A stretch of 64,000 nucleotides of DNA from Aliiroseovarius sp. PrR006. Its GTDB lineage: Bacteria > Pseudomonadota > Alphaproteobacteria > Rhodobacterales > Rhodobacteraceae. The stretch is taken from the NCBI RefSeq assembly GCF_010500215.1, contig NZ_JAAGOY010000004.1, positions 744,001-808,000 on the forward strand. Direction: 5' to 3'. Positions 2,690 to 21,984 of this stretch are shown in pieces. Each line of letters begins with the position of its first letter. The first letter of the stretch is position 1. The notes under the pieces are model-generated. The model saw nothing but the letters and a program-made list of their open reading frames with translations. It had not been told where the DNA came from and did no database searches. Position numbers and translations under genes: made by a program.

Positions 2690-3031
2690 GTCCCTTCGGG
2701 GACTATGGACATAAACGCGCTCGTAATAAGCGGATCGGACCCGGGGGCGGTACCCGGCGCCTCCACCATAATGCACTCAGGGGCATCCTTCGTTTGAGGA
2801 CCACCTTGATATCGTGGGGGCGAAATAGGATCGACGGACGTCTAAAGGGGTTAGCTTTGTTTCGGTGAGATACCACCGTTATCGGTTCACTTAAGCTAGT
2901 TGCAAACGACAACAAAGCTCCGGCAATGGCTCTGGCTGCGTAAGCAGTTCGGGTCGCCGAAACTTAAGTCCTTACGCCTAGCCGCGTTTGGCGGGGTTCG
3001 CAGGTACCTGGCAACAGAAACCTGCACTTCC
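2690..3031 (+). ncRNA. ssrA: Two-piece, circularly permuted tmRNA precursor
   Basis: The order is permuted as in alphaproteobacteria. The acceptor piece comes first: a UUCG hairpin (2690-2703), a T-arm-like segment, and an encoded CCA ending at 2768. An intervening loop (2769-2815) is removed. The coding piece starts at 2816 with GGGGGCG, which pairs over 7 bp with CGCCTCC just before ACCA of the acceptor piece (one G-U). The tag reading frame, 2902-2943, starts with a GCA resume codon and encodes ANDNKAPAMALAA then TAA. A hairpin GCAGGT/ACCTGC (3000-3005, 3020-3025) closes the 3' region. Both outer ends are estimates. The RNA rescues stalled ribosomes and marks the product for ClpXP. Confidence 0.93.
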
Positions 3032-3084
3032 ACCCCCCATCATTTTCGCTTGCAATCGGACACGCTTCGCGCCCCTATCCGCGC

Positions 3085-4332
3085 ATGAACCCGTCACTGT
3101 CCGACCTCACCCGCGTTTTTACCCGCATTGGATTAATGTCCTTTGGCGGGCCGGCTGCACAGATCGCCGTGATGCACAAGGAATTGGTCGAAGACCGGCC
3201 GTGGCTGAGTGAGGATCAGTTCCTGCGCGCGCTGTCCTTTTGCATGCTACTGCCCGGCCCCGAGGCCATGCAGCTGTGCACCTATGCAGGCTGGCGGCTT
3301 CGCGGCACGTTGGGCGGGCTGATCGCTGGGCTTCTGTTCGTCCTGCCCGGAGCGGCCGTCATGTTCGCGCTGGTACTGGCCTATGCGAACTGGGGCAATG
3401 TCCCGGGAGTCGAGGCGCTGTTTCTGGGGATCAAGGCCACCGTAATTGTGGTGGTGTTGCAAGCACTATGGCGGCTGGGGCGTAAAACCCTGAAACGCCC
3501 GCTGCATTGGATCATCGCCCTTGTGGCCTTTGTGGCGCTCTATCTATTTGGACTGCCCTTCCCGCTGGTGATCGTCGCAGCCGCCCTGTTTGGTGCGCTG
3601 CGCCCCGTCACCGAAGGCACGATCCATCCCGCTCCGACACCACAGACCCGCACCACCCTCTCTACCATCGCCCTCTGGAGCGCACTCTGGGCGGCACCGA
3701 TCGCTCTGGCTGCCATGCTGGGCGCGGAGTTCCTTGTGGATGTAGGGCTCTTCTTCTCGAAGCTCGCGGTGGTCAGCTTTGGCGGCGCCTATGCCGTGCT
3801 CGCCTATATGGCGCAGGCGGCGGTAGAGGCCGAGGGTTGGATCAGCGCAGGTCAAATGGTCGACGGGCTGGGGCTGGCCGAGACGACGCCCGGCCCCCTG
3901 ATTCTTGTCACCCAATTTGTGGGCTTCATGGCGGGCTACAATCTTGCAGGCGCAGGACTGGCCTTCGCAGCTGGGCTGATGACCCTCTGGACCACCTTCG
4001 TGCCCTGCTTCCTGTGGATCTTCACCGCGGCCCCGCACGTAGAATGGCTGACCAGCCAACCCAGGCTGGTCGCCGCCCTGCGCGCCATCACCGCCGCAAT
4101 CGTCGGCGTCATCGCCAATCTGATGCTGTGGTTCGCCATGGCCGTGTTCTTTGCCCGAACTCTTCCGATCTGGAAGGGATTGCCCGGTGTACGTCCAGAC
4201 ATAAGCTCGGTCGATCTGACAGCCGTCGGCCTCTGCGCACTGTCGGCCCTACTGCTGACCCGTCTGTCGCTGCCCGTGACCCTGATCTGCATGGCGTTGG
4301 CCGGGCTAGGCAGCAATCTTCTGTTCACTTGA
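3085..4332 (+). CDS. chrA: Chromate transporter ChrA, two-domain (long) form
   Basis: A 415-residue inner-membrane protein with about ten hydrophobic helices in two homologous halves. Each half opens with the family signature: RIGLMSFGGPAAQIAVMH near residue 14 and KLAVVSFGGAYAVLAYM near residue 225. LPGPEAMQL and ETTPGPLILV are the paired conserved loops. The length fits the long-chain CHR family, which exports chromate using the proton gradient. The next gene, sspB, starts 68 bases after its stop; a functional link with the tmRNA upstream is not expected. Confidence 0.93.
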   Translation: MNPSLSDLTRVFTRIGLMSFGGPAAQIAVMHKELVEDRPWLSEDQFLRALSFCMLLPGPEAMQLCTYAGWRLRGTLGGLIAGLLFVLPGAAVMFALVLAYANWGNVPGVEALFLGIKATVIVVVLQALWRLGRKTLKRPLHWIIALVAFVALYLFGLPFPLVIVAAALFGALRPVTEGTIHPAPTPQTRTTLSTIALWSALWAAPIALAAMLGAEFLVDVGLFFSKLAVVSFGGAYAVLAYMAQAAVEAEGWISAGQMVDGLGLAETTPGPLILVTQFVGFMAGYNLAGAGLAFAAGLMTLWTTFVPCFLWIFTAAPHVEWLTSQPRLVAALRAITAAIVGVIANLMLWFAMAVFFARTLPIWKGLPGVRPDISSVDLTAVGLCALSALLLTRLSLPVTLICMALAGLGSNLLFT

Positions 4333-4400
4333 TCACTTCCTATCTTCCCTTCCCTGCGCCCTGCCCCTATTCTGACCCAAAGCGCAGGAGGTCCCGCCCG

Positions 4401-4931
4401 ATGTCAGACATGTCCGACCAGATCGACTATGGAAATCTGATGCATGACGCCATGCGCAGTTTGATCCGCAAAGTTCTGAGCGACGTGGCTAGTGATGGAT
4501 TACCGGGAGAGCACCATTTCTTCATCAATTTCGACACCCACCACGAAGATGTCGAGATCGCGGACTGGATGCATGACCGCTTTCCCGACGACATGACCAT
4601 CGTCCTGCAACACTGGTTCGAAAACCTCGAGGTTCGCCCCGATGGCTTCGCCGTGACCCTGAACTTTGGCGACGTGCCTGAACGGCTTTACGTGCCCTTT
4701 GATGCCATCCGCACATTTGTGGATCCCTCTGTCGAGTTTGGCCTGCGGTTCGAACTGCAGGAAGAGCATCATCCCGATCTGCACCTAGCGGGTGACGAGG
4801 ATCTTCTGGCCGAAGAAGAACAGCCCGTGTCTGATCCCGAACATGACGATGTGGAAGCAGGTTTTGCCGAGGATGTGGAAGAAGAGCATCACGACGCCGA
4901 GATTGTCAGCCTGGACAGTTTCCGCAAGTGA
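4401..4931 (+). CDS. sspB: SspB-type ClpXP adaptor (alphaproteobacterial)
   Basis: A 176-residue protein of the alphaproteobacterial SspB family. It starts at an ATG with GGAGG ten bases before it. The folded part (residues about 5-130) shows the substrate-binding core: HHFFINFDTHHEDVEI, MTIVLQHWFENLEV and LYVPFDAIRTFVDPS. An acidic linker follows, and the C-terminus AEIVSLDSFRK resembles the ClpX-binding tail. Family members recognise the AANDN part of the ssrA tag and deliver tagged proteins to ClpXP. The matching tmRNA gene lies 1.4 kb upstream and its tag keeps ANDN. Confidence 0.92.
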   Translation: MSDMSDQIDYGNLMHDAMRSLIRKVLSDVASDGLPGEHHFFINFDTHHEDVEIADWMHDRFPDDMTIVLQHWFENLEVRPDGFAVTLNFGDVPERLYVPFDAIRTFVDPSVEFGLRFELQEEHHPDLHLAGDEDLLAEEEQPVSDPEHDDVEAGFAEDVEEEHHDAEIVSLDSFRK

Positions 4932-4953
4932 TGCCCTGCCTCGCAGGGGCATC
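4930..4953 (+). terminator. Hairpin after sspB, possible terminator
   Basis: GATGCCCTG and CAGGGGCATC pair with one bulged base around the loop CCTCG, beginning at the last base of the sspB stop codon. There is no clear T-run, so its role as a terminator is uncertain. Confidence 0.35.
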
Positions 4954-4992
4954 CGTAGGATTTTCAGATATTGACAGAAAACCTGTTGCACT

Positions 4993-5571
4993 ATGCGCCA
5001 TTTCATTCAACTTTCGGCCTGCCTCTATTTTCTTGCAAGCAGTGGAAACGCATGGGCGGATGATAACCAAACCATCCCATTGGCCGCTGCCGGCGAAGGA
5101 CACTGTGCAACCGAATGGGCCGCATTGATGGGCCTAGGGGCTACGACGCAGCTTACAGACCCCGTGGAATACGATGGCACGCTTGACCCTGACACATCGG
5201 CCACCTTCGGAAAATATGCGGACGCAGTGGTCGCATTATCGGAATATGAATTTGCATTAATTGCGCTGATAAGAGAAGCACAGCAAAGCAAACAGCAGTT
5301 CGATCTGGTCCGCGCACGGTTCGATCTTGCGATGTGCCTGATGCCGTCTCAGACCGAGCGTGACCTCATCACCGCCGCCTCGATGCGCGTGACCGATCGC
5401 TCCGAGTCTGAAACGCGCGAACTCCTGTTCCGACCCTTTGACAGCTTCCTGTGCCTGAAAATGGGCACGGTCAGTAGAAAGATCTTCGCACTCGACCCAT
5501 TGGCCTCAGATTTTCGTGATCAGGCGATTGATATCTCCATTAGTACGATACGCCCGTGTGACGAGACCTGA
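4993..5571 (+). CDS. Secreted protein of unknown function
   Basis: A 192-residue protein with a Sec signal peptide: basic start, hydrophobic core and a likely cleavage after NAWA at residue 22. The mature part has four cysteines (at HCATEW, MCLMPS, FLCLKM and RPCDET), which could form two periplasmic disulfides. The middle is helical and charged. I recognise no domain. It lies alone between sspB and fumC on the same strand; A+T content is a little higher than in its neighbours. Confidence 0.75.
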   Translation: MRHFIQLSACLYFLASSGNAWADDNQTIPLAAAGEGHCATEWAALMGLGATTQLTDPVEYDGTLDPDTSATFGKYADAVVALSEYEFALIALIREAQQSKQQFDLVRARFDLAMCLMPSQTERDLITAASMRVTDRSESETRELLFRPFDSFLCLKMGTVSRKIFALDPLASDFRDQAIDISISTIRPCDET

Positions 5572-5669
5572 AAACCACCAACGTTAGCGGTATCCCACGG
5601 TATACAGGATTGAACTTTGCGCCGATTCCGCTATGAAGAACGCGGTATTTTTGACAAAGGCGCAAAGAC

Positions 5670-7064
<1,395 letters not shown>

Positions 7065-7083
7065 TCATCCCCCAATTCATGCG

Positions 7084-7117
7084 AATGGCGCGGTTGTCTT
7101 CAACCGCGCCATTTTTC
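7084..7117 (+). terminator. Rho-independent terminator of fumC
   Basis: A 13-bp perfect stem, 7084-7096 with 7101-7113, surrounds a TCTT loop and is followed by TTTTTC on the plus strand. The A-rich left side also allows use by the convergent gene at 7123-7437. Confidence 0.85.
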
Positions 7118-7122
7118 ATTTA

Positions 7123-7437
7123 TCAATCACGAACGCGAAGCACGTCCCATCTTGAGCTGCCAGAAACCACATAATCGGACATCTTTTTGCCCCACTCCGC
7201 GTGGATCTGCACCTTTCCGATCCGATCAAAGAAGTCATCCAGCTCGGCAAGGCTTTCAATCTCCATCTCGGTGACGATCAGGGCTTCTTCTGCCCCGATA
7301 TGCCCAGTCATGTAGCGGGCATTCTTCATGTCGAACCCGGATTGCTTCGCGACTTGTTCGTCCCACTCTTTCATCAAGTCCAAAACAGCCGACTGGTGGC
7401 CAAACTTACTTTTCACTTGCCATCTTGCAACAAACAT
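7123..7437 (-). CDS. Conserved hypothetical protein, antibiotic-monooxygenase-like fold possible
   Basis: A 104-residue soluble protein converging on fumC. It begins FVARWQVKSKFGHQSAVLDLMKEW and contains a mid-protein ITEME-like strand, a pattern that recalls small dimeric alpha+beta barrel (NIPSNAP/ABM-like) proteins, though this is only a resemblance. The ATG at 7437 follows AGGGG; a GTG codon precedes it directly. No catalytic residues can be named. Confidence 0.75.
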   Translation of the reverse strand: MFVARWQVKSKFGHQSAVLDLMKEWDEQVAKQSGFDMKNARYMTGHIGAEEALIVTEMEIESLAELDDFFDRIGKVQIHAEWGKKMSDYVVSGSSRWDVLRVRD

Positions 7438-7581
7438 CACGTCATCCCCTATTTGCTAAATTATCATTCGCTCGATAGGGTTCGTGCACAGCATACCGTG
7501 TAAACCAACCGCCTTCAGCATACAGGATATGCCCTGACCTCACAAATTCGCGCTGGCATTCAAGGAGCCGTCAGTAACCTG

Positions 7582-7767
7582 ATGACCAACAAAGTGATCA
7601 ACCTTCGTCAGTTTCGAAAGCAATCGGCCAGACAGCAACAGGCACAACAGGCCGACGAGAATGCGGTCAAGTTCGGTCGATCGAAAGCTCAGAAAAGCAT
7701 GGAGAGAACGCAGCTTGAAAAGATCAGGAAAGACCACGCGGCGCATGAACGGGAAGATGACGCATGA
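7582..7767 (+). CDS. DUF4169 family small protein
   Basis: A 61-residue, highly charged protein. It matches the short DUF4169 pattern: an N-terminal KVINLRQFRKQ, then a long helical Lys/Gln/Glu-rich region with NAVKFGRSKAQK. The stop overlaps the start of the next gene (7764-7767, ATGA), so the two are translationally coupled. Function unknown; the strong basic and coiled character suggests nucleic-acid or protein binding, which is inference. Confidence 0.85.
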   Translation: MTNKVINLRQFRKQSARQQQAQQADENAVKFGRSKAQKSMERTQLEKIRKDHAAHEREDDA

Positions 7768-7976
7768 GCCGGCCTGAGAAACATTCTCTTACCTTGCATG
7801 GTCACCGCACCTCCGTCTCTCTTGAACCCGAATTCTGGCAGGCGTTTCAAGACATCGCGAAGGCCCGCAGCCTACCCTTGAACGCCCTTGCTGCCGAGAT
7901 CGACAATGCGCGTGGAGTCGATCGTGGTTTGGCGTCGGCGATCCGGGTCTATGTGCTGGAGCATTATCGCGGTTAA
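7764..7976 (+). CDS. Ribbon-helix-helix domain protein
   Basis: A 70-residue protein of the RHH_4 type: GHRTSVSLEPEFWQAFQDIA gives the DNA-binding ribbon and first helix, and RSLPLNALAAEID the second helix. Such proteins usually dimerise and bind DNA as small repressors, but members of this group next to fumC and DUF4169 have no described target. The gene overlaps the DUF4169 stop by four bases. Confidence 0.88.
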   Translation: MSRPEKHSLTLHGHRTSVSLEPEFWQAFQDIAKARSLPLNALAAEIDNARGVDRGLASAIRVYVLEHYRG

Positions 7977-8010
7977 CGCAGGCTTAACCAAGCTGGCTTA
8001 GCGTGAGAGG

Positions 8011-8241
8011 ATGACCGAACAAGTCCGCCTTCTCCCTGCCCAGCTTTGGATGCAGCAGATCTTCGAAGCCAAAGCCGCTCGTGAAGGCGGTATCGTGCGG
8101 CGTAAACGCCGGGACATCGAGAGAACCATTGGATGGCAGGTTTTCGAAACCGAAATCCGTAGACGCGGCTATCATGTGGTCGAAAACTGCGGACAGATTG
8201 TCATCTTTTGCAACGACGCCCCAATCCGCCAAGTTATCTGA
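8011..8241 (+). CDS. Small conserved hypothetical protein
   Basis: A 76-residue basic protein starting TEQVRLLPAQLWMQQIFEAK, with a central run EGGIVRRKRRDIER and a C-terminal strand GQIVIFCNDAPIRQVI. I recall similar small Rhodobacterales proteins sometimes carrying unrelated enzyme names; nothing in this sequence supports an enzyme. It follows the RHH gene by 34 bases on the same strand and converges on the P450 gene. Confidence 0.7.
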   Translation: MTEQVRLLPAQLWMQQIFEAKAAREGGIVRRKRRDIERTIGWQVFETEIRRRGYHVVENCGQIVIFCNDAPIRQVI

Positions 8242-8246
8242 TGGAA

Positions 8247-8291
8247 CAAAGCTTTTAGAAAGCTTTGAAACAGGCTTTTCTGAAAAGCCTG
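8247..8291. terminator. Two tandem 9-bp hairpins, bidirectional terminator candidate
   Basis: Hairpin one pairs 8247-8255 with 8259-8267 (loop TAG). Hairpin two pairs 8271-8279 with 8283-8291 (loop CTG). Both arms are perfect and share the core GCTTT. They lie between convergent genes, with stops at 8241 (plus) and 8295 (minus). There is no T-run outside the stems in the plus direction; on the minus strand hairpin two is followed by TTTC. Confidence 0.5.
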
Positions 8292-8294
8292 ATG

Positions 8295-9665
8295 TCAGCG
8301 TTTCGTCAGCCGCAACCATATCCCGTCCTTCCCGCGCACCGTCAAATGTGCAACGGGCATGGCGGGACGATCCTTGACCAACTCAAACCGATAAGACCGC
8401 ACCAGCATCGACAGAATCAACGGCCCCTCGATCATCGCAAAACCTGATCCCGGACAAACCCGTTGCCCGGCCGAGAACGGGAGATAGGCGTCGCGCAAGC
8501 ACTCTTTCCCTTTGGGCGTCTGGAACCGCTCCGGATCGAAAGCGTCAGGCTGATCCCACAGGCGTTCGTGGCGATGCAGATGCCAAGGGCTAAGGACGAT
8601 CTGGCTGCCCACGGGCACCTTGCGGGCGCGGAAACGCTCGGGGCATGTGGTCTCGCGCACCATCATCGGAACCGGGGGATAAAGGCGCATGGTCTCGCGA
8701 AACACATCGCGCGACATGCGCAGCTTGGACATGACCGAGAAATAGGCCTTCTCGGGATCAATCTGCTCTTGCGCCTCTTGGGCCACCCGCTCCTGCCAGT
8801 CGGGATAGAGCGCCAGAAGATACAGTGCCCATGCCAAGGCCGAGGCGCTGGTTTCGTGCCCGGCCAGGAAGAAAATAGCGACCTGATCAACCATCTCATC
8901 CGTATCGAAACACACGCCCGTTTCCGGATCTGGCGTCGTCATAATCTTGGTGGCCAGATCATCCGGTGCGGTCCCCGCCTGAATGGCTTGCATCCGATCC
9001 TGCGTCAGCTGCTGGATCAACCCGCGAATGATTTTTGCGGTGCGCTTGGTGTCGCGCTTGTGGAACCGAGGGAACCACTTGGGCAGCGGCAAAAACGCCC
9101 CAAGGTTCAACACCGGTTGGGTACGTTGGTGGTTCTTGAACTCGTCAAACACACGTCCCGCAACTTCGTGCTCGATGGGGATCGAAAACAACGTGCGAAA
9201 GATGACATCTGCGGCGGCATGGCTAGTGTGGCTTTCGATCTCGACCGGTTTGCCGGTTGCAGGGGCTTCGAACCGCGCGACAGCCGCGTTGGCAGCGTCC
9301 CACATGGCTGGGAACACCTCGCGCAGGCGCCCTCCTTCAAAGGCCGGGTCAATAATACGCCGTTGGCGTTTCCACACCTCGCCGTTGGTCACAAAGACCG
9401 AGTTCCCCAGAAGCGGCGCCAGCCCCTCCCTGATCCGGTCGGACTTTGGGAAGTCATCAGGGCGCCCTTTCAACACCAGATCAATCAGCTCCGGATCATT
9501 GCACATATAGCTGCGGAAAAACGGGGTCCGGAACTCGGCCATCCAGGCGCGGTACAGTCGCGCGGGTTGGGCCGATAGGATGTCCTTGCGAAACAGCTTC
9601 GCATAGCGCCACAGCGATACCCGACCGGGGCGTGAAGGCGGCTTAGGGGGCAAAGGGCCCGTCAT
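8295..9665 (-). CDS. Cytochrome P450
   Basis: A 456-residue soluble P450 without a membrane anchor. Present are the I-helix oxygen-activation motif AGHETSAS, the K-helix ExxR in FRETMRLYPP, and the heme-cysteine loop FSAGQRVCPGSGFA. It would hydroxylate or epoxidise a hydrophobic substrate using an external ferredoxin/reductase; no redox partner is in the window. The start overlaps the stop of the upstream membrane hydrolase by four bases, so the two are cotranslated and probably work on the same or a related lipid-like substrate, which is inference. Confidence 0.95.
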   Translation of the reverse strand: MTGPLPPKPPSRPGRVSLWRYAKLFRKDILSAQPARLYRAWMAEFRTPFFRSYMCNDPELIDLVLKGRPDDFPKSDRIREGLAPLLGNSVFVTNGEVWKRQRRIIDPAFEGGRLREVFPAMWDAANAAVARFEAPATGKPVEIESHTSHAAADVIFRTLFSIPIEHEVAGRVFDEFKNHQRTQPVLNLGAFLPLPKWFPRFHKRDTKRTAKIIRGLIQQLTQDRMQAIQAGTAPDDLATKIMTTPDPETGVCFDTDEMVDQVAIFFLAGHETSASALAWALYLLALYPDWQERVAQEAQEQIDPEKAYFSVMSKLRMSRDVFRETMRLYPPVPMMVRETTCPERFRARKVPVGSQIVLSPWHLHRHERLWDQPDAFDPERFQTPKGKECLRDAYLPFSAGQRVCPGSGFAMIEGPLILSMLVRSYRFELVKDRPAMPVAHLTVRGKDGIWLRLTKR

Positions 9666-20419: not shown

Positions 20420-21541
20420 TTACTGCTTCGGGAAGTAATCTTCGCAGTCGCCATCGCGATAAACGTCTGCCGTGCAACAGTGCAGACCGCCGCCAAACGC
20501 ATAGGCGTCGCGCAGCTCGACCTCGACCACTTCCATGCCCAGCTTGTCCATCTGCTCGGCCTGATAGACCTCGGACTTCTCGACACAGACGGTTTTTGGG
20601 TCCAGCACCAGCACGTTCATGGAAAGCCAAGTCGACGAGTAGCACAGCGGCGGCGGCGTGTTGTGCGCGGGTTGTGCGGCGTCCACGATCTCCCACCCGT
20701 TCTTTTCAAACATGCCGCGCTGCTCTTCCGGCAAGCGGCGCTGGGGGTTGTTTACGATCAGGCCCGGGCGCAGTGGCGTGAAGGTGGCATCGATGTGGAT
20801 CGGGTACGGGTCGCCAGGGAAGTTCACCGTGTGCACGCGGTGGTCGGGGAAGTGACGGCGCAGCCATTCGATGCCCTTCAGGTTCGTTGTGAACCCGTGC
20901 TGAACTACCAGATCCTTGCCAAAGCGCAAAACGTCGGCGGCGTCGAACAGCGGTTCTTCCTCGGTGGTGACAAAGAACTTCTCGGCGGCCCACTCCAGAC
21001 GCTGAGCGTCACCGATCTTCTCGGACAGATAATCCGGGTGGTAATCCGCATCGGTCAGGCGCGGCTTGGGGGCGGCTTCATGACGGAAGCGAGGGTCTTC
21101 TTCCCAATACTGCTTCAGAAGCGGACGATAGTTCAGATACTCGAACCAGCGGCAGCGATACGACATGGTCGCTTCCAGCATCTCGTGCCCAACGGTTAGC
21201 AGCACGTCACGCGGCGGCATGCAGCCGAACTGGCTCTCGGTGTGGAAATCCGGCGTGGTCACGGGCTGCGAATGATCAATCGAGACAGGACGGTCCACGC
21301 GCACACCGCGCTTGCGCAACAGGTCGGCGAAATTGTCCAACAGTTCGTTCGCGCGGTCGATGGTTTCCTGCGGACGACGGCCCCACTGGCCCCGCATGTC
21401 GCTATCTTCCGGAACCTTGGCGTCCAGCGCGGGCTCTTCCGGCGGGATGTGGCAATCATCGGCACGGCCCACGATCACATGGCGCAGCGTGTCCCATTCG
21501 TTCCAGCTTTTGACTTCAGTTTTGTCCGGCGACCAGGCCAT
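20420..21541 (-). CDS. Glycine amidinotransferase-like protein (AGAT family)
   Basis: A 373-residue enzyme of the amidinotransferase fold. It resembles vertebrate L-arginine:glycine amidinotransferase along its length: EPLFDAADVLRFGKDL (catalytic Asp region, about residue 200), NLKGIEWLRRHF, PIHIDATFTPL with catalytic His249, and GGLHCCTADVYR with the nucleophile Cys355. The family moves an amidino group from arginine to an amine, giving guanidinoacetate when the acceptor is glycine; the acceptor here is not certain. GGAGG lies five bases before the ATG but can be sequestered in a hairpin, and a 34-codon ORF ends nine bases upstream. Confidence 0.88.
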   Translation of the reverse strand: MAWSPDKTEVKSWNEWDTLRHVIVGRADDCHIPPEEPALDAKVPEDSDMRGQWGRRPQETIDRANELLDNFADLLRKRGVRVDRPVSIDHSQPVTTPDFHTESQFGCMPPRDVLLTVGHEMLEATMSYRCRWFEYLNYRPLLKQYWEEDPRFRHEAAPKPRLTDADYHPDYLSEKIGDAQRLEWAAEKFFVTTEEEPLFDAADVLRFGKDLVVQHGFTTNLKGIEWLRRHFPDHRVHTVNFPGDPYPIHIDATFTPLRPGLIVNNPQRRLPEEQRGMFEKNGWEIVDAAQPAHNTPPPLCYSSTWLSMNVLVLDPKTVCVEKSEVYQAEQMDKLGMEVVEVELRDAYAFGGGLHCCTADVYRDGDCEDYFPKQ

Positions 21542-21545
21542 GAAT

Positions 21546-21659
21546 GCCTCCTATCTGAGGGAGGCAAAGGCGGGGCCTTCAATCTCCCGATTGAAAGTCC
21601 CGGCGTACAGGAGCGTGGAAAAGGAACCGGGGAGGATGCCCCGCGGCGACGCCATCGCC
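21546..21659 (-). promoter_or_regulatory. Structured leader of the amidinotransferase gene, SD-sequestering hairpin
   Basis: Complementary segments on the minus-strand RNA: GCCTCC/GGAGGC (21560-21565 with 21546-21551), which buries the Shine-Dalgarno; TTCAATC/GATTGAA (21578-21584 with 21589-21595); a five-base CCCGG/CCGGG stem (21599-21603 with 21628-21632); a long-range 7-bp stem 21570-21576 with 21638-21644; and GGCGA/TCGCC (21645-21649 with 21655-21659). I do not recognise a known riboswitch class. The same stretch can be read as a small ORF, so translation of that ORF could open or close the SD hairpin. Confidence 0.5.
21551..21655 (-). CDS. 34-codon upstream ORF / leader peptide candidate
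   Basis: ATG at 21655 follows AGGA seven bases upstream, and the frame runs 34 sense codons to a TAG whose last bases form part of the GGAGG used by the amidinotransferase gene. The predicted peptide begins MASPRGILPGSF and ends GPAFASLR. Third positions are mostly G or C, as in real genes here. It could be a regulatory leader peptide that couples translation, or a short protein; no homolog is known to me. Confidence 0.45.
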   Translation of the reverse strand: MASPRGILPGSFSTLLYAGTFNREIEGPAFASLR

Positions 21660-21714
21660 GTGTCCTGAATGGCTTTTAGCACTCACAATGTTGGCCGAAA
21701 AGAGGGTTTCGCCC

Positions 21715-21984
21715 CTATTTCAACTGGCTGTCCTTGGATCCGCGCCGATTGATCCCCGGGCGCGTCTTGAAGGCCGCATCCCGGTCCTGCACGCAGTCGA
21801 TGCACAGCTTCACGCCCGGCAAGGCCTCGCGTCGGGCTTGGGGGATTTCTTCTTCGCATTCCGCGCAATGAGTGAAGCTCTCGCCCACAGGCTGCGCTTT
21901 GGACTTCATCCGCGCAAGTTCGTCCGAGACGGATGCTTCAATCTGTTCGCTTACTGCGCCGTCGCGCGCCCATCCACCAGCCAT
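21715..21984 (-). CDS. DksA/TraR-type C4 zinc finger protein
   Basis: An 89-residue protein with a C-x2-C...C-x2-C finger: CAECEEEIPQARRE followed by LCIDC, the DksA/TraR pattern. The helical N-terminus is much shorter than in true DksA (about 150 residues), so it is closer to TraR or YbiI-like small members. Such proteins can bind the RNA polymerase secondary channel, but this short form may not. Same strand as the small membrane gene upstream. Confidence 0.85.
   Translation of the reverse strand: MAGGWARDGAVSEQIEASVSDELARMKSKAQPVGESFTHCAECEEEIPQARREALPGVKLCIDCVQDRDAAFKTRPGINRRGSKDSQLK

Follow-up and report, generated by a model that had tools for sequence, protein, structure and literature searches.

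A candidate riboswitch in the leaders of creatinase and amidinotransferase genes of Alphaproteobacteria

Described systems and the leader in the window

The guanidine-II riboswitch (mini-ykkC) is built of two small hairpins with ACGR loops, the CG-containing loops being in contact, and binds a guanidinium group. Glycine and other amino-acid related riboswitches occur in the leaders of genes that deal with small nitrogen compounds. The leader RNA considered here, which precedes genes for creatinase and for an AGAT-type amidinotransferase, too has two small hairpins with complementary loops, but these read UGGCG and NACGC instead of ACGR twice (in 145 of 150 creatinase leaders, and also in AGAT leaders), the linker between them is long and variable, and the regulated genes are creatinase and AGAT. 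The Rfam model of guanidine-II gave no match in the leaders scanned, nor did any glycine or other amino-acid related family despite the similar gene area. Indeed, Rfam 15 at the gathering cut-off assigned no family at all to the leaders scanned, its matches lying elsewhere (tmRNA, tRNA, TPP), and looser scans of the leaders returned only snoRNA and sRNA matches below the cut-off. The first-pass annotation of this locus had recognized no riboswitch family, and in this it is borne out. A TPP riboswitch (RF00059, 74.9 bits) was found near the creatinase leader of one genome (G199), at 1716-1822 of locus L103.

Creatine utilization is also regulated in Corynebacterium glutamicum, a bacterium of another phylum, where control of the creatine-use genes is attributed to AmtR (accessible part of PMC8864220), a protein transcription factor and not a leader RNA as here. 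Within the same order, the Rhodobacterales RNA motifs HRC-8-4 and uORFC-8-2 were likewise found by comparison, but at other genes than creatinase and AGAT, namely cbb3 oxidase operons and cysS (main text of PMC8632094). The main text of that paper contains "creatin" and "amidino" 0 times, and the main texts of PMC11109978 and PMC9971707 contain "creatin" 0 times; the accessible part of PMC12335538 names creatine solely as a guanidino compound. A literature search on creatine, creatinase, amidinotransferase and guanidinoacetate riboswitches, with supplements and most subscription papers outside its scope, yielded no description of such an RNA. Within the literature and Rfam searched, the RNA class is undescribed.

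The window analysed is a stretch of 64,000 nt from Aliiroseovarius sp. PrR006 (contig NZ_JAAGOY010000004.1, positions 744,001 to 808,000), and all features below lie on its minus strand. The presumed regulated gene (20420..21541) encodes an amidinotransferase of 373 aa according to phmmer and Pfam. Its best phmmer matches are L-arginine:glycine amidinotransferase (AGAT; 1jdx, E 1.7e-84, and 1jdw, E 2.3e-84), with HsvA, SxtG and inosamine-phosphate amidinotransferase scoring below these entries, and Pfam ADI matches the product at 26.7 bits. In the leader, hairpin P1 (21644..21660) carries box 1, GATGGCGTC, at 21656-21648 and has the loop UGGCG; P2 (21628..21643) lies in the variable linker; P3 (21598..21612) carries box 2, here CTGTACGCC, at 21610-21602 and has the loop UACGC; and P4 (21576..21597) has the loop GGGA and an extension, GGG/CCC, that competes with the 3' strand of P3. 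A last hairpin, TGCCTCC/GGAGGCA (21545..21566), sequesters the Shine-Dalgarno sequence (SD). This SD-closing hairpin and further stems had been proposed from the window alone, as had an ORF of 34 codons with an AGGA 5' of its ATG, and hairpin, P1 to P4 and ORF are indeed present; the proposal also named a long-range 7-bp stem, for which it gave no coordinates. The ORF (21551..21655) runs from the ATG at 21655 to a TAG at 21553-21551 that leads into the AGGAGG at 21552-21547; we judge it incidental, since its frame is not conserved.

Upstream of P1, the sequence TGCTAA (21676..21681) resembles a -10 element. The pattern TGNTAW, picked only after inspecting the sequences, stands 25-30 nt 5' of box 1 in 36 of 36 AGAT leaders versus 3 of 108 control windows, and its position suggests that transcription probably starts just 5' of P1. 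A sigma-70 scan found no promoter. Directly 3' of a DksA/TraR-type zinc-finger gene we noticed by eye a terminator-like GGGGCGAAACCC followed by TCTTTT (21695-21720), which may insulate the leader from this upstream gene and is absent from the output of the terminator scan. The sole match of that scan is the P2 hairpin (21628-21643) followed by GTTCCTTTTC, and P2 could be a weak terminator in the window. The folding energy of the window leader is unremarkable (z -1.52; 12 of 200 shuffles fold equally well). Taken from the window sequence alone, the stems would be weak evidence; the comparison with relatives makes them strong.

Downstream genes and range of the RNA

The comparison started from 88 AGAT loci, comprising the best 80 of 382 relatives and 8 from the genome and genus of the window (one a fragment match only); several loci with a 97-99% identical protein belong to the genus Aliiroseovarius. 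A 33-nt box, TCCTGTACGCCGGGACTTTCAATCGGGAGATTG, was found 70-75 nt upstream of the aligned start, with 3 changes or fewer, in 40 of the 88 loci and is missing from the other 48, which include Sulfitobacter, Marivita, Planktotalea, Tateyamaria and Octadecabacter. Removal of duplicates left 36 distinct leaders, whose alignment has 42 invariant columns. P4 is nearly invariant across these AGAT leaders, and four pairs of P2 show changes on both sides.

A covariance model built solely from AGAT leaders (R1) matched 206 of 394 Rhodobacteraceae genomes (393 genera) at E 0.01. Four matches away from AGAT (loci L102, L104, L115 and L119; 42.9 to 94.3 bits) precede another gene. The product of that gene in L119 matches creatine amidinohydrolase (PDB 1chm, E 8e-163), and those of the other three match the L119 creatinase at 72-83%; the creatinase copy in the genome of the window matches PDB 7yto (E 7.4e-162), so that the identification rests on 1chm and 7yto at E 1e-159 or lower. 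DddP is a DMSP lyase in the superfamily of creatinase. We considered it as a mistaken identity and rejected it, as creatine amidinohydrolases rank top and no chain listed is named DddP.

Creatinase occurs in 260 of the 394 genomes searched with R1. Among the 150 R1 matches listed, 123 were placed: 110 precede creatinase, 13 precede AGAT and 0 precede a third gene. Genomes with a listed creatinase place account for 95 of these matches, 84 of which lie directly upstream of the gene and on its strand; of the other 11, ten precede AGAT by their coordinates and one (G386:C16) precedes a second full creatinase copy. Among the remaining 55, three precede AGAT (genomes G393, G154 and G348), six precede creatinase (L106, L110, L114, L116, L118 and L120), and 19 more that were fetched all precede creatinase sequence (19/19), two of them remnants. 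Matches of 30-50 bits might have been noise, a reading that we discarded, as their positions relative to creatinase show them to be creatinase leaders. Because R1 had no creatinase leader in its training set, we regard the matches before creatinase as independent confirmation of the association. Two genomes with R1 matches (G068 and G127) have, by eye, no creatinase at E 1e-100, their match places not being among those listed. In the two remnant cases, L330 (G205, 558-960) and L331 (G100, 1698-1961), both boxes of the RNA are exact and 89 and 72 aligned creatinase residues follow, respectively, as if the creatinase gene had been lost after the leader.

AGAT is present in 70 of the 394 Rhodobacteraceae genomes. 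The RNA precedes it in 13 of these 70, and 54 of them also carry creatinase (by eye). In G154 and G348 the RNA precedes AGAT, yet no creatinase is found at E 1e-100; these genomes could be useful for telling the ligand apart. AGAT and creatinase are near neighbours, in convergent or divergent order, in G093, G220, G390 and G789.

We then have the creatinase leaders themselves, the best 150 of the 260 creatinase matches, or about one per genus. Both exact boxes, GATGGCGTC and CTGNACGCC, lie upstream of 145 of these 150 genes; in the other five the boxes are altered (L151, L166, L221 and L230) or at best a remnant (L248). The distance between box 1 and box 2 in the 145 leaders is 31-140 nt with a median of 46, and box 1 is flanked by at least three pairs in 136 of them. 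A P4 of the AGAT type also occurs in the creatinase leaders L119 and L102/L125, from which it appears that one leader type has probably moved between AGAT and creatinase genes. As judged from these sequences, the RNA belongs to the 5' leaders of two kinds of alphaproteobacterial genes, those for creatinase and, in a minority of cases, those for AGAT-type enzymes.

In the 3.2-Mb genome of the window the exact two-box pattern has two matches, one upstream of AGAT and the other upstream of creatinase; the reversed control pattern has 0. A search of 385 Alphaproteobacteria genomes with model R2 gave 13 matches, spread over 12 genomes; creatinase follows 12 of the matches and AGAT the remaining one. 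Seven of the 12 genomes belong to families other than Rhodobacteraceae, which in this sample makes the RNA rare outside that family. In a sample of the phylum, 25 of 398 genomes match, all of them Alphaproteobacteria, as are 45 of 45 rows listed, though the share of other classes in the sample is not given and the figure is therefore no evidence of absence beyond the class. All 16 loci newly fetched from this sample are creatinase leaders, some in genomes already covered; one match is weak (G1014, 32.5 bits). Every placed match (123 of 150 listed for R1, 13 of 13 for R2 and 16 of 16 phylum loci) has creatinase or AGAT downstream. As is general for riboswitches, the genes linked to the RNA among placed matches belong to one metabolic area.

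In the genome of the window, the creatinase gene that carries the RNA has four ABC transporter genes downstream of it in the same orientation (L289, that is G000:C7:66000-83000, at 2690-8819) with Pfam BPD_transp_1 twice, SBP_bac_8, and ABC_tran with TOBE_2. This set is a candidate creatine importer. A general creatine-transport operon was considered and rejected: as a whole the set is absent from the other 25 of 26 creatinase regions compared, where its ATPase alone matches once (L310). In 8 of the 26 regions, counting the source of the query (L288), the fetched sequence contains an aldehyde dehydrogenase.

Covariation, SD pairing and rival readings

Alignment A2 combines 22 AGAT leaders, chosen for diversity, with 112 creatinase leaders, the first of 138 (out of 145) within the linker limit, for a total of 134 of the 181 available. 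All rows were selected for exact boxes, a choice that by itself makes the box columns invariant (before selection the figure was 145/150); no selection applied to the arms of P1 and P3. P1 is 93.7% paired, with double changes at 4 of 6 pairs; for P3 the figures are 85.1% and four pairs. Individual positions are weaker: 98 of 133 rows have no pair at the outermost P3 column (83/101), which hardly belongs to the hairpin, and 40 of 133 have none at column 4/20 of P1. Double-change cells number 130 compared with a shuffled mean of 45.7, and 0 of 500 shuffles reached that value; slid registers were 31.8-50.8% paired versus 91.1%, with 2-79 double-change cells.

These controls leave relatedness in, and for this reason the pair states were additionally placed by parsimony on a creatinase tree (81 distinct of 100 proteins), using our own script with a cost of 1.5 for a double change. 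Pairs 1-4 of P1 beyond the box acquired an inferred 3, 6, 9 and 15 pairing-keeping double changes (33 in total), and the outer pairs of P3 1, 9 and 5 (15 in total), compared with 0, 1, 0 and 4 in a shifted register. Changes to or from the unpaired state amount to 1, 1, 4 and 20 at the P1 pairs and 0, 2 and 8 at the P3 pairs. The 5' leader thereby shows an aptamer-like fold with compensatory changes, a general mark of riboswitches. The first-pass annotation had proposed conservation of stems or frame in relatives with the same gene as the deciding comparison: the stems are kept, with compensatory changes, and the reading frame is not.

The P1 loop UGGCG is complementary to the P3 loop NACGC through GCG/CGC, extendable by a U-A pair. 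These loop-loop pairs are invariant and as such outside the reach of covariation, and we infer from complementarity a possible kissing contact. Beside the closing G-C of P3, the pair at A2 columns 88/96 is U-G in 127 of 133 rows, is never Watson-Crick in the alignment, and reads U-A in two other leaders (L256 and L264); the retained wobble suggests a special role. The linker between the boxes varies in length and sequence. The P4 loop GGGA was also considered as an SD mimic, a reading we set aside in favour of what we take to be a GNRA-type cap (GGGAG in 35 of the 36 AGAT leaders, AGGAG in 1).

A helix of at least 7 bp covers the SD in 25 of 36 AGAT leaders (69%) versus 32% in dinucleotide shuffles, and in 70 of 105 creatinase leaders versus 43%. 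The 145 creatinase leaders shrank to these 105 by way of 124 and 118, as rows lacking an unambiguous start, an SD or enough room were dropped. In AGAT leaders the two arms of this helix change together, as in CCGUCUCU/GGAGACGG in L025 and UGAUCUCC/GGAGAUCG in L036. In 56 of the 105 creatinase leaders the best SD helix, of at least 6 bp, starts inside the 3' strand of P3, the usual pairing being GACCUUU with GGAGGUC or a longer version of it, compared with 8.2% in a control in which shuffling was confined to the sequence separating P3 from the SD; in the other 49 the shared-strand helix is absent. Where the strand is shared, P3 and the SD helix would be mutually exclusive, so a stabilized P3 should expose the SD. 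In ensemble folds with P3 enforced, SD exposure rose by more than 0.2 in 23 of 118 creatinase leaders and fell by more than 0.2 in 9, and in the 36 AGAT leaders its mean went from 0.164 to 0.192, with a gain in 2. The folds of the AGAT leaders have P3 competing with the extended P4. By this strand sharing, the creatinase leaders concerned would have the design of an ON-switch, although the ensemble effects are small in creatinase leaders and almost nil in AGAT leaders.

Could something other than a small molecule read these hairpins? A regulatory protein that senses creatine or nitrogen status might bind the conserved P1 and P3 loops, and their very strict sequence, the small size of the RNA and a linker of 31-140 nt would all be in keeping with a protein that spans both hairpins. 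We consider this unlikely: a kissing pair is also compatible with a variable linker, and the five recurring neighbour clusters in the 26 creatinase regions (an AAA ATPase, an alpha/beta hydrolase, an M20 peptidase and two without a Pfam family) include no recognized RNA-binding protein, the latter being a weak argument because a regulator need not be encoded nearby. Short, strictly conserved boxes between a probable transcription start and the SD would also be expected if a trans-acting sRNA paired with GATGGCGTC or CTGNACGCC; the boxes are, however, complementary to each other and each sits in a covarying hairpin, neither of which a plain sRNA site would need, and we give this reading very little weight. 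Even less probable are half-sites of a transcription factor on the DNA. GGCGT and ACGCC do form an inverted repeat, but their distance ranges from 31 to 140 nt, the arms covary, the boxes lie 3' of the -10-like element, placed R1 matches are on the strand of the gene, and the box hairpin is coupled to the SD helix.

The reading frame itself can be followed across the leaders. Read from the conserved ATG, it has its stop within the SD in two AGAT leaders out of 36 (that of the window and L003); 13 others keep it open beyond the main start, and the remainder close it early. In the 145 creatinase leaders it spans 3 to 73 codons, some clipped by the end of the stretch, and the box distance takes all values modulo 3 (0, 1 and 2 in 49, 36 and 60 leaders). 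Its place inside box 1 accounts for the conservation of the ATG, which does not extend to the frame behind it; neither a conserved frame nor a conserved end, as expected of a leader peptide, was found. The fit between ORF end and SD is real in the window and looks like chance: of the 35 other leaders one shows it too, L003, where the conserved box is read in a different frame. A leader peptide or attenuation through the 34-codon ORF, for which the window offers an ATG with AGGA upstream, is accordingly rejected on the frame comparison and the modulo-3 spacing. Of the double use suggested by the first-pass annotation, the structured and probably ligand-controlled cis-regulatory leader stands, and the peptide role falls.

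A probable ligand and its meaning for creatine turnover

We return to the RNA itself, which we consider likely to be a structured element acting in cis and, most probably, a riboswitch whose class is undescribed in what was searched. From the functions of its genes, it probably controls creatinase and AGAT in response to creatine or a closely related compound. Creatinase converts creatine to sarcosine and urea, and AGAT transfers the amidino group of arginine to glycine in a reversible reaction that yields guanidinoacetate. Creatine and guanidinoacetate are the compounds that link the two enzymes, and because most copies found precede creatinase, they are preferable to arginine or glycine, which had been guessed when ligand control was first proposed. 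Creatine fits as an inducer of creatinase; guanidinoacetate would fit both genes if creatinases accept it or if AGAT runs backwards. We rank creatine slightly ahead, and arginine, glycine, guanidine, urea and sarcosine are possible. Against a common ligand, the substrates of AGAT and creatinase are related and not identical, and control of AGAT by creatine needs a methyltransferase or some other rationale.

In the mechanism that we envisage, a kissing contact between the P1 and P3 loops would create the binding pocket for creatine or guanidinoacetate. A bound ligand would stabilize P3 in creatinase leaders, break the SD-hiding helix and turn translation ON, a polarity expected for a catabolic enzyme such as creatinase. 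In the AGAT leader of the window, with the SD in its own hairpin and P3 facing the extended P4, switching of either polarity is a candidate. We lean, by a narrow measure, towards the full proposal: a natural RNA, the first of its kind, that senses creatine or guanidinoacetate, is made of loop-joined hairpins, and would turn creatine breakdown ON and act on the amidinotransferase through a swapped platform.

If this is correct, the RNA would be a new riboswitch class for a ligand that the main text of the review PMC9971707 does not name. Its architecture could be compared with those of the guanidine riboswitches, as an independent RNA solution for recognizing a guanidino acid. AGAT-type enzymes are best known from animals, and why they share a switch with creatinase in bacteria would become a question. 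Moreover, the class would be present in nearly all creatinase-bearing Rhodobacteraceae genomes read (145 of 150 with exact boxes, among the best 150 of 260). Bacterial creatine turnover would then be open to direct tests, and a simple creatine biosensor might follow.
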